The position numbers and the translations under genes are program-made. A stretch of 26,054 bases of DNA from positions 1-26,054 of IMG/VR virus record IMGVR_UViG_3300011115_000252, one strand, 5' to 3'. Positions 10,840 through 24,706 of the stretch are shown here, piece after piece (positions within the stretch are counted from its first letter, which is position 1; every line of letters begins with the position of its first letter). The DNA is from a virus. The notes under the pieces are model-generated. The model was given only the letters and a program-made list of their open reading frames with translations, had not been told where the DNA came from and ran no database searches.

Positions 10840-11193
10840 CTAGTAAAATATATGATTGTTAATAATAGTTCTTGGCTTCATGCCCCATTGATTGTTCAAG
10901 TCAATATGATGAAAGTAACTAGCGCCTTTGCTAGTATCTTTGATCTCTTGCTTGATAATTTTTTGGGATAATTCTATGAAGGGTTTGAGTGTGCCATATG
11001 AGGGAATAACTTTAGTCTTGGTAGTCCATTCAAATTGATTTCTTTTGAAGGTCTCCGAGCATATATTCTTCTGGTCAAAGTCTGCTCTCCGATAAAGCAC
11101 GTATCCCACTGCCACTTGGCCAGGGATTGGTTCACCCCTAGCCTCATGGAACATGGTCAAACTCATACACATCACTGCTGCAACGTCTAACAT
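10840..11193 (-). CDS. Cell wall hydrolase of SleB type
   Basis: 117 residues. The N-terminal half carries the SleB/CwlJ catalytic region, MFHEARGEPIPGQVAVGYV (E17 and E21), followed by VLYRRAD. The C-terminal half has the family pattern GASYFHH...W and the ending NNHIFY. Family members cleave peptidoglycan (amidase or transglycosylase). It has no signal peptide. It is transcribed away from the main lysis cassette, next to pqqA and divergent from it, so it is a second wall enzyme with a likely different time of expression. AAAGGAG precedes the ATG by a few bases. Confidence 0.85.
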   Translation of the reverse strand: MLDVAAVMCMSLTMFHEARGEPIPGQVAVGYVLYRRADFDQKNICSETFKRNQFEWTTKTKVIPSYGTLKPFIELSQKIIKQEIKDTSKGASYFHHIDLNNQWGMKPRTIINNHIFY

Positions 11194-11284
11194 AAAGTCT
11201 CCTTTGCTTAGGTAGCTTTCATGGTTATCCGTATATACTTTCTATATACTTTAGGCATAATGAACTCACGAAAGGAGAACTACT
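11194..11284. promoter_or_regulatory. Divergent control region between the SleB-like gene and pqqA
   Basis: 91 bases without a gene. It contains two copies of TATATACTTT at 11232-11241 and 11243-11252, exactly 11 bases apart (one helix turn). Each holds a TATACT that could be a -10 element. A CATAAT lies at 11256-11261. No good -35 was found for either direction. Ribosome-binding sites AAAGGAG face both genes. A copy of the repeated box (CTTTCATGGTT, 11216-11226) lies here too. The repeats may be operators. Confidence 0.45.
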
Positions 11285-11356
11285 ATGTGGACAACACCAG
11301 CAGCTACTGAAATGCGTTTTGGCTTTGAAGTTACAATGTATGTAATGAATAAGTAA
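11285..11356 (+). CDS. pqqA: PqqA: precursor peptide of the cofactor PQQ
   Basis: 23 residues: MWTTPA at the start and EMRFGFEVTMY in the second half. The invariant Glu15 and Tyr19 of the E-V-T-x-Y core sit at the positions and total length typical of PqqA. These two side chains become PQQ after PqqE (with PqqD) joins them and PqqB, PqqC and a protease finish the cofactor. AAAGGAG lies 7 bases before the ATG. The gene is alone on the + strand between leftward genes, with a terminator-like hairpin downstream, the mark of a separately expressed cargo gene. No PqqB-E gene is present, so host enzymes would be needed. Its 3' end overlaps the end of the opposing small membrane protein gene by 26 bases. 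Confidence 0.88.
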   Translation: MWTTPAATEMRFGFEVTMYVMNK

Positions 11357-11531
11357 TCCAAGCATACACAGAGAAGGCAATGCCTACGGAGACTTTAGTA
11401 GCTCTCCATATGCGTTGCCTTTTCTCTTTGGGTGACTCTAATGTCACCTCGTATTCATAGCCATTGATCTCTTTAAATGAGCGTGGGAAACGCCATTCAA
11501 AAGCATTAAAGTTAGTTTTGTATTGTTTCAT
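11331..11531 (-). CDS. Small membrane protein of unknown function
   Basis: 66 residues: a polar N-terminal part (NAFEWRFPRSFKEINGYEY), a basic stretch (KEKRQRIWRATK) and a hydrophobic C-terminus (VSVGIAFSVYAWITY). AAAGGA stands upstream of the ATG. The start overlaps the end of the ERF gene by 20 bases, so it is coupled to the recombination genes. Its last codons overlap pqqA on the other strand, and the pqqA terminator-like hairpin lies within it. Family unknown. Confidence 0.6.
   Translation of the reverse strand: MKQYKTNFNAFEWRFPRSFKEINGYEYEVTLESPKEKRQRIWRATKVSVGIAFSVYAWITYSLHTL
11374..11430 (+). terminator. Two-tier hairpin terminator downstream of pqqA
   Basis: Outer stem AAGGCAATGC (11374-11383) pairs with GCGTTGCCTT (11412-11421), 10 pairs with one G-U. 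Inner stem GGAGA (11388-11392) pairs with TCTCC (11403-11407). The + strand continues TTCTCTTTG, so it looks like an intrinsic terminator starting 18 bases after the pqqA stop. It lies within the coding sequence of the opposing small gene, which makes chance less likely but not excluded. Confidence 0.6.
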
Positions 11532-12252
11532 TTGGTTTTCCTTTCACATTGTTGATGCGAGTGGCTTGCTTGCCTATGTATTGCATCTTTACTGTTACTG
11601 GTAAGCGGTTTAGTGTAGGCTGGTTAGCTTCTACTAATGCTTTTAGTTTCGATATCTTATCCTCTGGATTAAGGCTAGAATTAACTAGCTGTTCAGAAAT
11701 TTCATCAAACTTTGCTTGCCATGTCAAGACATCTGTGAGTTCTAATGGGTCTTTGCCTGGAATATAGAAGGTAAATCCATTAGTTTGTTGCTTTTTTACA
11801 ACACTGCCAGCTCTTTCTGTGGCTAAATTGCCATCATCATCCTCTGGGGCTATGCCACAAGTAGCCATAAGGCTATATCTACGGGCATATGTCAGAGCTG
11901 AACCATATCCTTGTGGATCTTGCTTAGGTGCTGGCACATGTAAGATACCACCAGTTAAAGTCTCACCACTTTCATGGATTAATATGGTTTCAATCTTGAC
12001 ACCATTCTCACAATCATGAGTGGTTTGTATCAAGGCAATGCCATTATTATTGAGTGCATCTAAGACAGCTTCAATACATCCATCTAAAGACACATACTTA
12101 GATCTAAAGTGTGGATTGGTTGATGTTTTTAATGCTGGTGCAAACTCTTTCTGTGCCTTAACAAAGGCTGTTGCTATAGTTTTCATACTTTTCTCCTGTT
12201 GTTGTTGTAATTCACTCATAACTTCTACTTCAAAACGATCTTGGTCATTCAT
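11512..12252 (-). CDS. erf: ERF-family single-strand annealing protein
   Basis: 246 residues from the ATG at 12252, which has AAGGAGG about 7 bases upstream; an alternative start 7 codons earlier is less likely. Family motifs: FAPALKTSTNPHFRSKYVSL near the N-terminus, HESGETLTGG, then the hallmark GYGSALTYARRYSL and EDDDGN. ERF/Sak-type proteins pair complementary single strands for recombination and can circularise phage genomes. It neighbours the YqaJ-type exonuclease, its usual partner. The C-terminal third is a less conserved, charged extension. Confidence 0.9.
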   Translation of the reverse strand: MNDQDRFEVEVMSELQQQQEKSMKTIATAFVKAQKEFAPALKTSTNPHFRSKYVSLDGCIEAVLDALNNNGIALIQTTHDCENGVKIETILIHESGETLTGGILHVPAPKQDPQGYGSALTYARRYSLMATCGIAPEDDDGNLATERAGSVVKKQQTNGFTFYIPGKDPLELTDVLTWQAKFDEISEQLVNSSLNPEDKISKLKALVEANQPTLNRLPVTVKMQYIGKQATRINNVKGKPNETIQN

Positions 12253-12793
12253 ACATATCCTCCTTGACCTCATTCAAACCTACTGAAAAATCAAACAAAT
12301 GCATAGGCAAGAGCTTACTGAATGGAACATAGTGGCATCTATAGCCAGCATCCCCACCTAGTTTAGATCCAAAGTCCTTGAGCGGAGCTTCGTCTACTTG
12401 CTCATGCACTGCATAGCCTACTAATATTGCTTTCATTCCAGAGGTAATTGCTTTTGTTTCTCTTGGAACATCAATCAATATCTGCACATAAAAGTCTGGC
12501 TTTCTTTTACGAGCGTAATCTTCTCTTACAAGTAAGTGTAAATTATCTTGATAAGGATGAGCGCTTGTCTTGATCTCTATCTTATTAAAGAAATCAACCT
12601 TGCCTTTTGTGTTATACATATCATGAAGTTTCCAATCTTTTAAATACCACTTGGCAAATACTAACTCGCCAACCAATCCTAAGACTGTATCATAAGGTGA
12701 TGCCTTCGTTCTATTAACTTCCGTATACTTAGATGCTATTGTTGCTGCATCCAACATCTCTTGATCGATGTAAGTATAAGGTTGCCTTATCAT
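12245..12793 (-). CDS. PD-(D/E)XK nuclease-like protein
   Basis: 182 residues. GLVGELVFAKWYL gives the early Glu, and GKVDFFNKIEIKTS gives the D...E-x-K core (D and IEIK) of the PD-(D/E)XK fold. HLLVREDYARKRKPDFYVQIL fits the following strand-helix and matches restriction- or resolvase-like members of that fold. It lies between YqaJ exonuclease and ERF, with a 4-base start overlap with the former and an 8-base overlap with the latter. A role in DNA processing is probable; the exact substrate is not known. A non-catalytic relative is possible. Confidence 0.65.
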   Translation of the reverse strand: MIRQPYTYIDQEMLDAATIASKYTEVNRTKASPYDTVLGLVGELVFAKWYLKDWKLHDMYNTKGKVDFFNKIEIKTSAHPYQDNLHLLVREDYARKRKPDFYVQILIDVPRETKAITSGMKAILVGYAVHEQVDEAPLKDFGSKLGGDAGYRCHYVPFSKLLPMHLFDFSVGLNEVKEDMYE

Positions 12794-13746
12794 ATACGAT
12801 CCTTGATAGATAGTTTAGATTGTCTAATGACATACGCTTCTTTAGCTGGCACAGTTTTTGCTGGCTGTGCTTTATATTGACGCATAGGCCACGATATTTT
12901 GTAACGACCCGCATTACACACTTCTGCATCACGCATTTGCTCCATGATGTTGATCTGTAAGCGATCAATCTGATTCTCTAACTCCATGATTTGCTCACGA
13001 ATTGTAATGATCTTCTCAGCTTGTAGCTCAACTTCGGGTAACTCAATCGCACTCTTTTCCGCACGATCAAACACACGACTGGCTTCAAAAGAATTGTCAA
13101 GCGGATACCAATCTATTTCTTCATTAGATTTATACTTATCTAACTTAGCTTGGAATTCCTCAACAGCTTGATGAATCATATTGACTTGATCTTCATCACG
13201 CTCATACAAGAAAATACGAAGTGTTGTGCCACGATACAGCACGCATAGCGCACCCCACTTGGCTTTCATAATATCCATCTGTCCTTGCAACTGAATGACA
13301 CAACGATAAACAGCTGGGGTATCTTCGACATCCTGTGCTGTAAGCTTGGCCTCTAATATACCTAATCCATCTAACTTGATAGGCTTAGTGCCATCATTCA
13401 TCACATAAATGCCATTACCAACATCGGTGAATATTTCATTCCCGACACCCTGAGCAGTGCCATCAAGCGAGCAAGCCAGTGGAATGCTGTCATGGAAATA
13501 GGGCTGATCGTGATCGAGGTTATCAATCTCACAGCCTAATCTTTTAACAGCTTCGGATAGGATTAACTTCTCTGTAAGATTGCCCCATATCATTGGCTCA
13601 TTCTCAATAAACTCTGGCTCGATGCCTTGATAGTATTCAATGCTTTGTTTTAATTCATCATTCGGCGTTCTAAACTTGCTAAAACCTAACAAGGCTGGAA
13701 GCCTTGAGCATGACATCATGTCATTCGGAGTCAGTTTCCCCACCAT
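12790..13746 (-). CDS. YqaJ-type viral exonuclease
   Basis: 318 residues. SRLPALLGFSKF and MIWGNLTEKLIL (early Glu) open the domain. IPLACSLDGTAQG (Asp), LGILEAKLTAQD (E-x-K) and VIQLQGQMDIMKA (Q-x-Q) give the lambda-exonuclease/YqaJ catalytic order. A C-terminal coiled coil (ITIREQIMELENQIDRLQIN) extends it, as in many phage versions. It would resect double-stranded ends to feed the ERF annealing protein. It starts inside the end of the recombinase gene (26-base overlap). AAAGAGAG is upstream. Confidence 0.88.
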   Translation of the reverse strand: MVGKLTPNDMMSCSRLPALLGFSKFRTPNDELKQSIEYYQGIEPEFIENEPMIWGNLTEKLILSEAVKRLGCEIDNLDHDQPYFHDSIPLACSLDGTAQGVGNEIFTDVGNGIYVMNDGTKPIKLDGLGILEAKLTAQDVEDTPAVYRCVIQLQGQMDIMKAKWGALCVLYRGTTLRIFLYERDEDQVNMIHQAVEEFQAKLDKYKSNEEIDWYPLDNSFEASRVFDRAEKSAIELPEVELQAEKIITIREQIMELENQIDRLQINIMEQMRDAEVCNAGRYKISWPMRQYKAQPAKTVPAKEAYVIRQSKLSIKDRI

Positions 13747-14422
13747 ATTTTCTCTCTCTTTCTTTAATTGTATTGAAATACCATTGAACGTTAGAGCCTG
13801 TCCATTGGCGGTTAAGATAAGTCTTGATACCTAACTCATTGAGCTTCTTTGCAATGCCAACACATGTAGGCTTATCCGCCTGTTGTATTGCAATATCCAC
13901 CCATTGTTTAATGCTTAAAGCGTATTGTGCTGTGTGATAAGCGCGTCTATTGCCTCCAGCTGTGCCAATCTCTTTGAGTTTATCTCTAGGCGCTCCGAGC
14001 TGGATGCCTCTAGCTTTGGCAGCTCTCAAAGCGTTTTTAGTATTGATCGAGATTTGCCGCCTTGTTTCCTCGTTTAATACAGCTCGAATATGCAATTCGA
14101 AAATACTTGCTTTGGGGGTTTCAGCGATGACCAATGGAACCTTCTTTTCCAATAGCTCAGACATGAGATGAACAGAACGCGTTAATCTACACTGTTTAGC
14201 TACCAATAGGAATTGATCTTTTTCAAAATCTAAAAGTGCAAGCGCCTTGAGCAGCTCAGGCCTATGATTATGAGAGCCGCTCTCGATGTCGGTAAACTCG
14301 GCCACGATCTCAGCGCCTTCCGCTCGGGCGTAGGCGTAGCATATTTGCTGCTGCGCCTCTAAACCTAGCCCGCTTTCACCTTGCTTATCCGTAGACACGC
14401 GATAATAAGCTATAAATTTCAT
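13721..14422 (-). CDS. Serine recombinase (resolvase/invertase type)
   Basis: 233 residues. The N-terminal catalytic domain starts MKFIAYYRVSTDKQG, with R8 and the nucleophile S10. It includes LGLEAQQQ, SGSHNHRPELLKAL and VAKQCRLTRS, and a long helix region with NTKNALRAAKARGIQLGAPR. The C-terminus has a short DNA-binding part (IAKKLNELGIKTYLNRQW) without the large Cys-rich domain of integrases. It may integrate, invert or resolve DNA. No attachment site could be identified. A repeated-box leader (14429-14440) supplies AAAGG before the ATG. Confidence 0.85.
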   Translation of the reverse strand: MKFIAYYRVSTDKQGESGLGLEAQQQICYAYARAEGAEIVAEFTDIESGSHNHRPELLKALALLDFEKDQFLLVAKQCRLTRSVHLMSELLEKKVPLVIAETPKASIFELHIRAVLNEETRRQISINTKNALRAAKARGIQLGAPRDKLKEIGTAGGNRRAYHTAQYALSIKQWVDIAIQQADKPTCVGIAKKLNELGIKTYLNRQWTGSNVQWYFNTIKERERKYGGETDSE

Positions 14423-19405: not shown

Positions 19406-19556
19406 TTTAGAAGAACGTATACAAAAGTTAAGAGATGCTTATGCATTAAATAACATTTATCAAACGGAGTCATTACAGATTATTGATGCATTGCAAGCAC
19501 AGATAGCAGTGTTGAATCAATTACTAGCACTCGAAATTAAAGACATCGATGGCTAA
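19389..19556 (+). CDS. Small coiled-coil protein
   Basis: 55 residues (MSAPNSLEERIQKLRDAYAL at the start) with heptad-like leucines (LQIIDALQAQIAVLNQLLAL). The ATG at 19389 is preceded by GAGGAGG, an excellent ribosome-binding site, which decides the start over an upstream in-frame codon. It overlaps the large terminase by 8 bases. Possibly a terminase- or portal-associated helper; unproven. Confidence 0.6.
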   Translation: MSAPNSLEERIQKLRDAYALNNIYQTESLQIIDALQAQIAVLNQLLALEIKDIDG

Positions 19557-21102
19557 TAAAAAAGAAGTATCTCAAAAGGCCATTCATGGCCCTGGGATTG
19601 ATTTAGACTTTTCTACAGCGCCAACTACTTGGCAATTCCTACAGTCTGATGCATTCGTGCGTGGACTAATGGGGCCTGTAGGCTCTGGTAAATCCTATGC
19701 ATGTGCCGCAGTGATTATGATGCGCGCAGTCAGACAAAAGCCATCACCTATTGATGGTATTCGTTATACACGATTTGTGATTGTGCGTAACTCATATCCA
19801 GAGTTAAAGACAACGACAATCAAAACATGGCAAGATTTATTTCCAGAGAACACTTTTGGTCCAATGCTATATACTCCTCCTATTACTCATCACATTAGAC
19901 TCCCAGCACGGGGTGATGCTGCGGGGATTGATTGTGAAGTAATTTTTTTAGCATTGGATCAACCTAAAGACGTAAGAAAACTATTATCACTTGAACTGAC
20001 AGGAGCGTGGGTCAATGAAGCTCGTGAATTACCTAAAGCAGTTATTGATGGACTTACACATCGTGTGGGTCGTTATCCGACACAACGTGACGGAGGACCT
20101 ACTTGGCATGGTGTGTGGATGGATACTAATCCAATGGATGATGACCACTGGTGGTTTAGATTAGCAGAGAAAGAAAAGCTAAGTGGTAAATATGCATGGC
20201 AATTCTTTAAACAACCTGGTGGTGTTACAGAAGTATCTCCAGGCGATTTGCCAGAGAATCCAGAAGCGAATGACCATATATTTTCTGGTGGTCGTTGGTG
20301 GAAGATAAATCCTAAAGCTGAAAACGTAGGTAATCTACCCGCGGGTTATTACATGCAGATGTTAGGCGGTAAGAACCTAGATTGGATTAAGTGTTATGCC
20401 GAAGGTAAATATACATACGTTCAAGAAGGTAGACCCGTATGGCCAGAGTATGACGATCATGCTATGAGTGGTGAAGTTGATTACGATCCAGAACACTCAC
20501 TTCAAGTGGGTCTTGACTTTGGTTTGACACCAGCCGCAGTGGTAGGTCAGCGTTATCCTAATGGAAGATGGGTTATCTTAGACGAGATTGTAACTTTTGA
20601 CATGGGACTAGAGCGATTTGGTCAGCAATTACTAGCAGAACTTAATGCTAAATACCCAAAAGCACAAGTCATGCTATGGGGTGACCCAGCTGGTATGCAA
20701 CGAGATGCGATTTATGAAGTAACAGCATTTGATTATCTACGAACTCTAGGGTTACGCGCACAACCTACACCATCCAATGACTTTAAGGTGAGACGAGAAG
20801 CTGCGGCTGCACCTATGCAACGACTTATTAATGGCAAACCTGGACTAATTGTCAATACAAAATGCAAGATGATACGTAAATCACTTGCTGGTGGTTATCA
20901 TTTCAAGCGTGTATCTGTTGGTGCTGGTCAAGAAAGATTTAGAGATGCGCCAAATAAAAACGAACACTCACACGTAGGTGATGCTTTTGGCTACTTACTC
21001 CTTGGTGGTGGTGAACATAAGCGTATGACTAAGAGTCCGTTGCAAGCATCAACTATTATTGCCCAAACTGTTGCTTCTGCTGACTTCGATGTATTTAAAT
21101 AA
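19549..21102 (+). CDS. terL: Terminase large subunit
   Basis: 517 residues. The ATPase half has Walker A GPVGSGKS (42-49) and the acidic Walker B-like LTGAWVNEARE. The nuclease half has QVGLDFGLTP, LWGDPAGMQRD and the late HVGDAFGYLL with the metal-binding Asp residues. This motor packages DNA into the prohead and cuts it. It lies upstream of the portal with small genes between. The TerL subgroup, which decides between cos, pac or repeat-type ends, cannot be set by eye. No frame disruption. Confidence 0.93.
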   Translation: MANKKEVSQKAIHGPGIDLDFSTAPTTWQFLQSDAFVRGLMGPVGSGKSYACAAVIMMRAVRQKPSPIDGIRYTRFVIVRNSYPELKTTTIKTWQDLFPENTFGPMLYTPPITHHIRLPARGDAAGIDCEVIFLALDQPKDVRKLLSLELTGAWVNEARELPKAVIDGLTHRVGRYPTQRDGGPTWHGVWMDTNPMDDDHWWFRLAEKEKLSGKYAWQFFKQPGGVTEVSPGDLPENPEANDHIFSGGRWWKINPKAENVGNLPAGYYMQMLGGKNLDWIKCYAEGKYTYVQEGRPVWPEYDDHAMSGEVDYDPEHSLQVGLDFGLTPAAVVGQRYPNGRWVILDEIVTFDMGLERFGQQLLAELNAKYPKAQVMLWGDPAGMQRDAIYEVTAFDYLRTLGLRAQPTPSNDFKVRREAAAAPMQRLINGKPGLIVNTKCKMIRKSLAGGYHFKRVSVGAGQERFRDAPNKNEHSHVGDAFGYLLLGGGEHKRMTKSPLQASTIIAQTVASADFDVFK

Positions 21103-23131: not shown

Positions 23132-24706
23132 ATGGCCGAAATGATGAAATTATCTGTTGATGATATCTTAAAAAGACATAAGAAAGCATTAACTAAAAAA
23201 GAAGATTTTAGATCTTTGTATGACGAAGCATATGAGTTTGCTTTACCACAACGCAATCTTTATGATGGTTATTATGATGGTGGTGTAGGCGGTGCTAAGA
23301 AAATGAATCGTGTATTTGATTCTACAGCTATCAACTCTACACAACGATTTGCTAATCGTATGCAATCTGGTGTATTCCCACCACAACGCAAATGGTGCAG
23401 ACTTGAACCTGGCACAGATATTCCAGATGATCGTAAAGAAGAAGCACAAGGTGCATTAGATATTTACACAGAAAAACTATTTGCTACATTAAAGCAATCT
23501 AACTTTGATATTGCAATTGGCGAATACTTACTTGACTTATCAGTAGGCACTGCTGCCATGATGGTTCAGCCTGGTGATGATGTTAATCCAATTAACTTTA
23601 TTCCTGTGCCACAATTCTTAGTATCATTTGAAGAAGGTGCTAATGGTCAAGTAGATAATGTGTATCGTAGATTTAGATTAAAAGCAGAGTCTATTCAATC
23701 ACAATGGAATGATGCTGTATTGCCACCAGAACTTGAAAGATTAATTGCAGACAAACCTACAGAAGATGTAGAACTTATTGAAGCTGTAATCTTAGATGTT
23801 AAACGTGGCGACTATTGTTACCATGTTATCTATGAAAAAGGCAAGGCAGAACTTGTATACAGACGTATGAAAACTAGCCCATGGGTTATTTCACGTTACA
23901 TGAAAGTAGCTGGTGAGATCTATGGTCGTGGTCCGTTGATTACTGCACTGCCAGACATTAAGACACTTAACAAAACATTAGAACTTGTATTAAAGAATGC
24001 ATCATTAGCTATTGCTGGTGTATATACCGCAGCAGATGATGGCGTATTGAATCCTAATACAGTGAAGATTGTTCCTGGTGCTATTATTCCTGTAGCACGT
24101 AATGGTGGTCCACAAGGCGAATCACTTAAAGCATTACCACGTGCTGGTGACTTTAATGTATCTCAAATTATTATGAATGATCTTCGTCAAAACATTAAGC
24201 GTATCTTACTTGATGAGTCATTACCACCAGATAATATGTCAGCTCGTTCTGCTACAGAAGTTGTAGAACGTATGAAAGAATTATCACAAAACTTAGGCTC
24301 AGCCTTTGGTAGACTTATCAATGAAACAATGATACCATTGGTGACTAAGATTTTAGATGTAATGGATCAAAAAGGTTTAATTGATCTACCACTTAAAGTC
24401 AATGGATTAGAAGTTAAGGTATCAGCAGTCGCTCCATTAGCTATGGCACAAAACATGGAAGATGTGCAGAACATATTACAATATGCTCAGATTGCACAAA
24501 GTTCTGGTCCAGAAGCACAAGCTACATTGAAGGTAGGCGCTATGATGGACTTTATTGCTGAGAAGTTAGGTGTGCCACAAAAAGTAAGAACAACCAATGC
24601 AGAAAGACAACAGGCAATGCAACAGTCTATGCAGATGGCACAACAAGCAGTTCAAGCTAATCCACAAATAGCAGCAGAAGCAGCTAAAGGATTAATGAAA
24701 GGATAA
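23132..24706 (+). CDS. Head-to-tail connector (portal) protein, T7 type
   Basis: 524 residues. Start MAEMMKLSVDDILKRHKKAL and the family blocks LYDEAYEFALPQRNLYDG, STAINSTQRFANRMQSGVFP, VYRRMKTSPWVISRYMK, GEIYGRGPLITALPDIKTLN and SARSATEVVERMKEL identify a T7-like portal. Twelve copies form the DNA channel at one head vertex, docking terminase and then the tail. The C-terminus is Gln-rich (QQAMQQSMQMAQQAVQ). Full length and no interruption. The next gene follows after two bases. Confidence 0.95.
   Translation: MAEMMKLSVDDILKRHKKALTKKEDFRSLYDEAYEFALPQRNLYDGYYDGGVGGAKKMNRVFDSTAINSTQRFANRMQSGVFPPQRKWCRLEPGTDIPDDRKEEAQGALDIYTEKLFATLKQSNFDIAIGEYLLDLSVGTAAMMVQPGDDVNPINFIPVPQFLVSFEEGANGQVDNVYRRFRLKAESIQSQWNDAVLPPELERLIADKPTEDVELIEAVILDVKRGDYCYHVIYEKGKAELVYRRMKTSPWVISRYMKVAGEIYGRGPLITALPDIKTLNKTLELVLKNASLAIAGVYTAADDGVLNPNTVKIVPGAIIPVARNGGPQGESLKALPRAGDFNVSQIIMNDLRQNIKRILLDESLPPDNMSARSATEVVERMKELSQNLGSAFGRLINETMIPLVTKILDVMDQKGLIDLPLKVNGLEVKVSAVAPLAMAQNMEDVQNILQYAQIAQSSGPEAQATLKVGAMMDFIAEKLGVPQKVRTTNAERQQAMQQSMQMAQQAVQANPQIAAEAAKGLMKG

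Follow-up and report, generated by a model that had tools for sequence, protein, structure and literature searches.

A phage-borne pqqA gene encoding a peptide identical to the PqqA of Methylophilaceae

Results

A phage fragment carrying pqqA

The DNA analysed here (the window, 26,054 nucleotides) is a virus record of 26 kb and probably represents only part of a genome. A gene for a terminase large subunit (19549..21102, plus strand) marks it as phage, and the record also contains genes for a podovirus-type head-tail adaptor/portal (23132..24706, plus strand), an endolysin, an Erf-like annealing protein, a RecE-like exonuclease and a serine recombinase (13721-14422). Twenty window proteins matched OM43 phage MEP301 in a protein comparison. 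The data indicate that the window comes from a tailed phage whose nearest cultured relative is MEP301, and its host is presumed to be a member of the Methylophilaceae. An RNA-gene reading of the window was dropped for lack of support, since an Rfam search of the whole window gave no match.

The initial annotation had described a 23-codon pqqA with Glu15 and Tyr19. Sequence and translation agree on an ORF running from ATG to TAA (11285..11356, plus strand) that encodes MWTTPAATEMRFGFEVTMYVMNK, in which the motif E-x-x-x-Y is formed by E15 and Y19, the two PqqA residues that become PQQ. The peptide scored about twice the curated PqqA cut-offs in both models applied, Pfam PF08042 (40.3 bits, E 3e-10, cut-off 21.1) and NCBIfam TIGR02107 (38.8 bits, cut-off 20), and these profile matches confirm the ORF as pqqA at the sequence level. 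Compared with the PqqA of Methylophilales, it was identical, letter for letter, to Methylophilaceae PqqA and equal to the commonest PqqA in the host set, which included OM43, Candidatus Methylopumilus and Methylotenera. The window gene shares with the host copies (PF08042/TIGR02107) the 23-aa peptide, the Shine-Dalgarno sequence and the arrangement of a small gene followed by a hairpin; unlike them, it is phage-borne and has no pqqB, pqqD or pqqE found in its record. The PqqE, PqqB and PqqD models gave no match in the whole window record, and the PqqC model gave none in the window nor in the PqqC controls. The proposed absence of pqqB to pqqE thus holds for B, D and E, while for C the search had no working controls.

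Signals around the gene

Both genes flanking pqqA, for a cell wall hydrolase (Hydrolase_2; 10840..11193) and for the Erf-like ssDNA annealing protein (11512..12273), lie on the minus strand, so that pqqA stands alone on the opposite strand, as had been noted. In MEP301, likewise, pqqA adjoins the ERF gene in opposite orientation. The gene has its own Shine-Dalgarno sequence, AAAGGAG (11271..11277, plus strand), with a gap of 7 nt between GGAG and ATG, and a motif of this kind preceded all 137 distinct phage pqqA copies. By-eye comparison of upstream regions pointed to a candidate -10 box, CATAAT (11256..11261, plus strand), with a CATAAT/TATAAT-type box similarly positioned in many relatives; this candidate is weak, because the consensus promoter scan did not recover it. 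Sigma-70-type promoter-like sites were no commoner than expected by chance.

Just 3' of pqqA lies a stable hairpin (~11370-11425, plus strand; -32.7 kcal/mol, z -4.79 against shuffles), whose stem shows, by eye, paired changes from GGAGA/TCTCC to GGAAA/TTTCC in relatives. A terminator-like hairpin had been proposed here; its stability was borne out, but the intrinsic-terminator consensus scan did not list it. The 80 nt after the pqqA stop had a mean z of -3.0 against shuffles in 135 distinct phage copies (67% below -2) and of -3.8 in 152 host copies. A separate hairpin element, GGTGAATAGCGTTCTTCAGAAAATCGGTATTTACC (L293:28010-28050 (-), L026, L036, L634), immediately follows pqqA on its 3' side in three different phages, in one of which the stem carries paired changes; a search of the loci gave no further occurrence.

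The hairpin overlaps a conserved 66-aa ORF on the minus strand (11331..11531), which also covers the last 26 nt of pqqA, an overlap absent from the initial annotation. This ORF was kept in 12 relatives at 82-89% identity and had no match in PHROG or Pfam. Together with the short length of pqqA and the opposite orientation of both neighbours, it may explain why gene callers miss the gene.

Distribution of pqqA in phages

A tblastn search of 50,697 phage records with PqqA gave 12 matches: nine cultured Methylophilales phages (P19250A, MEP301, Venkman EXVC282S, MEP401, MEP402 and four Melnitz), one spring-water podovirus and two 'Acinetobacter phage' records. The gene was present in 9/9 of these matching cultured phages, which are siphovirus-like, podovirus-like (Zobellviridae) and T4-like (Kyanoviridae); NCBI taxonomy lists six further Methylophilales phages outside the nine (MEP431-434, Venkman EXVC038S and the partial HIM624-A), none of them represented among the matches, and a literature search found no paper on MEP431-434. 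A Pseudomonas-type PqqA query, meant to reach phages of other PQQ producers, recovered these Methylophilales phages again, together with the spring podovirus and the two Acinetobacter records, and no others. Phages of other named hosts yielded no pqqA, the Acinetobacter records being judged host contigs. One of them, CAKLQF020000010.1 ('Acinetobacter phage MD-2021a', L248), carries ppk, pqqABCD and further bacterial genes; it is probably a bacterial contig in the phage collection.

The expectation that gene callers would skip so short a gene was borne out, as pqqA was unannotated in 7/7 phage records examined, and in Melnitz and the spring podovirus a 'hypothetical protein' had been called on the opposite strand instead. 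These calls, Melnitz gene 152 (L246:2961-3056 (-)) and one in the Manatee Spring podovirus (L247:2067-2195 (-)), are probably miscalls. In the remaining Melnitz records, the pqqA position is assigned to a hypothetical protein.

Two pattern scans of IMG/VR, each with at least 120 contigs, gave at least 158 distinct pqqA loci; all 158 listed encode PqqA in full length, and in one locus two residues are unreadable. No protein was shared with the reference phages at 33 of 129 viral loci. Five viral contigs (L003, L012, L017, L023 and L027) carry another PqqA type (IRLGFEVTMYF or LRLGFEVTMYF) and, judging from the peptide, possibly come from phages of other PQQ producers.

Prevalence was estimated in records chosen on no other grounds than terminase similarity and length and then searched for PqqA. 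The gene was found in 11/12 records with a window-like terminase, 6/13 P19250A-like records and 2/8 MEP401-like records, and is therefore near-fixed in the lineage of the window and patchy in the other two. The 0/7 obtained for Melnitz-like records is uninformative on absence, since all were fragments of a ~140-kb genome. Each of 32 pqqA-bearing records held exactly one copy.

Selection, gain and loss

The pattern used in the selection scan covers residues 1-13 only and leaves the reactive half (codons 14-23) unconstrained. Among the matches listed, Glu15 and Tyr19 were retained in 120/120 viral copies, and pN/pS was 0.063 for codons 14-23 and 0.015 for FEVTMY. Synonymous sites were heavily diverged (pS about 0.5-0.7). 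Viral pqqA is under strong purifying selection. Non-conservation of Glu15 and Tyr19 in related phages, which the initial annotation had given as a ground for refutation, was thus not observed.

The phage G036 has a terminase 97% identical to that of P19250A and no pqqA. It is without the ~156 bp of P19250A that comprise pqqA and its upstream region, and the gap falls between the gp30 stop and a hairpin plus GGGGC-GCCCC terminator common to both phages. With so clean an absence, pqqA is evidently gained and lost as a small cassette, and its lack in some close relatives means that the gene is not essential. Across phages, pqqA was oriented against both neighbours in 45 cases, with both in 34 and with one in 39, the others being at contig ends. 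Varied settings and orientations argue for a stand-alone unit, and phage pqqA behaves as the autonomous cargo that the initial annotation had supposed. In a comparison of the 72-nt ORF, which is too short for counting independent acquisitions, 18/127 viral copies were nearest to a host copy, and the difference between a phage copy and a host-derived one can be as small as 1 nt.

The host pathway

All 14 Methylophilaceae genomes surveyed carried pqqA, in one to seven copies each, and PqqE exceeded the cut-off in 13/14. The exception, an OM43 isolate record with a 0.9-Mb assembly (G002), had a single pqqA and is probably incomplete. The inferred host group thus holds the pathway that the phage peptide would feed, in keeping with the proposal that the host supplies the missing enzymes for an identical PqqA. 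Published genomes contain 3-12 pqqA copies against one pqqBCDE set (PMC4109929). Among pqqA-bearing viral records of at least 20 kb, PqqE exceeded the cut-off in 0/47 and a PQQ methanol dehydrogenase was encoded in 1/47.

Discussion

The suggestion that phage pqqA had not been described before did not hold. It was reported in the Lake Baikal viral population VP_266 (Coutinho et al. 2020, PMC7678222), and a 2026 study of reservoir sediment viromes lists virus-encoded pqqA, pqqD and pqqE (PMC13188868). As with the window, VP_266 is a case of virus-borne pqqA with a proposed support of methanol oxidation in methylotrophs; unlike 46 of the 47 pqqA-bearing records searched here (a set that did not include the window), it also encodes methanol dehydrogenase. 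The sediment study, as far as its listing of pqqA goes, likewise names it a viral auxiliary gene, but reads it as phosphate solubilisation, in hosts and contexts that are not methylotroph-specific there. PQQ is absent from the Venkman, MEP301 (PMC8024684) and MEP401/402 papers and appears in the Melnitz paper only as a medium supplement. In cultured Methylophilales phages, including MEP301, pqqA has apparently never been annotated, and the extent of phage pqqA and its lack of annotation in these phages look unreported in the open-access literature.

PqqA is consumed in the making of PQQ, one peptide for each cofactor molecule. We consider that phage pqqA is probably a functional orphan auxiliary metabolic gene that supplies this consumed precursor to host enzymes; the main proposal of the initial annotation, apart from that of a first description, remains the best available explanation. 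During infection, the gene would be expressed as a small unit by itself, and its peptide would be fed to host PqqD/PqqE for the Glu15-Tyr19 crosslink and then to the rest of the host pathway. Since PqqA is destroyed one-for-one, a further supply of peptide would maintain or increase the PQQ available to the host methanol dehydrogenase, and hence the energy supply, and such a top-up would act while host genes are shut down. The sequences show the identity of the gene, purifying selection, cargo behaviour, PqqE in hosts and no PqqE in the pqqA-bearing phages; expression, processing and the effect on PQQ level and burst we infer. That hosts and phages hold extra copies of the consumed part only would be consistent with peptide supply as the limiting factor for PQQ. 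Three points weigh the other way: with several pqqA copies present in the host, an advantage from adding another is unproven; a methanol dehydrogenase of the phage's own was found in only one of the 47 records; and some close relatives do without the gene. Crosslinking of the Glu and Tyr of PqqA by PqqE with PqqD is established biochemistry (Barr et al. 2016, cited through PMC7678222).

The same peptide could in principle act as a decoy that occupies PqqD/PqqE, lowers PQQ and diverts or stalls host methanol oxidation. A surplus of substrate peptide could compete, and no other gene of the pathway was found in the phage. The initial annotation had allowed for such competition with the host peptide. 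It becomes less likely given the conserved crosslinked residues and the identity with the host substrate: a decoy would be better off without the two reacting residues, both of which are under strong selection, and one phage has pqqA beside its own methanol dehydrogenase. We therefore regard a decoy as unlikely.

Two further readings attach no role to the peptide. The pqqA stretch might be recently captured, functionless host DNA, or host contamination in viral contigs, as the viral copies nearest to host copies and the 33 loci sharing no protein with reference phages could suggest; the gene is nevertheless carried by cultured phages, is flanked by phage genes in the window and is near-fixed in one lineage under strong purifying selection. 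The selection and prevalence data go most of the way to refuting this reading, which we judge very unlikely. It is scarcely credible that the DNA rather than the peptide matters, with the host-like pqqA stretch providing a site for attachment to, or recombination with, the pqqA copies of the host. The near-identity of some phage and host-derived copies and the serine recombinase of the window are what such a site might predict, but synonymous sites are heavily diverged, and when phage gene clusters were sought beside 149 host pqqA loci, 0/149 adjoined a cluster of genes similar to those of the phages.

Precursor supply by an auxiliary pqqA can be extended to a broader proposal, which in our view is as apt to fail as to hold: Methylophilales phages of several unrelated morphotypes would share an orphan pqqA as an overlooked host-takeover gene, with precursor supply as the bottleneck of methanol dehydrogenase in infection, a counterpart for methylotrophy of cyanophage psbA. 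If so, phages of globally abundant methylotrophs would steer methanol oxidation through a 23-residue substrate peptide and no enzyme, and auxiliary-gene surveys would overlook pqqA, because callers skip ORFs so short or call the opposite strand. Phage pqqA also offers a way to test whether, in streamlined methylotrophs with several pqqA copies, PQQ is limited by the supply of PqqA.

The single methanol dehydrogenase carrier (G062, 72 kb) resembles VP_266 (PMC7678222). The gene directly following its pqqA specifies a quinoprotein-associated SoxYZ-like carrier, and a formate dehydrogenase alpha subunit is encoded as well; at several host loci, a gene resembling one of those in G062 lies near pqqA. 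No capsid or terminase gene was confirmed on this contig (IMGVR_UViG_3300025120_009955), which elsewhere encodes ribonucleotide reductase, DNA ligase and GroEL. Its region at about 31.1-43.1 kb (L693:6149-18120) combines methanol dehydrogenase (608 bits), formate dehydrogenase alpha (885 bits), pqqA and a SoxYZ-like quinoprotein carrier, with ClpS, Hsp70, Hsp20, CsgG and an RpoZ-like protein nearby, and is possibly a methanol-oxidation module in a large phage.
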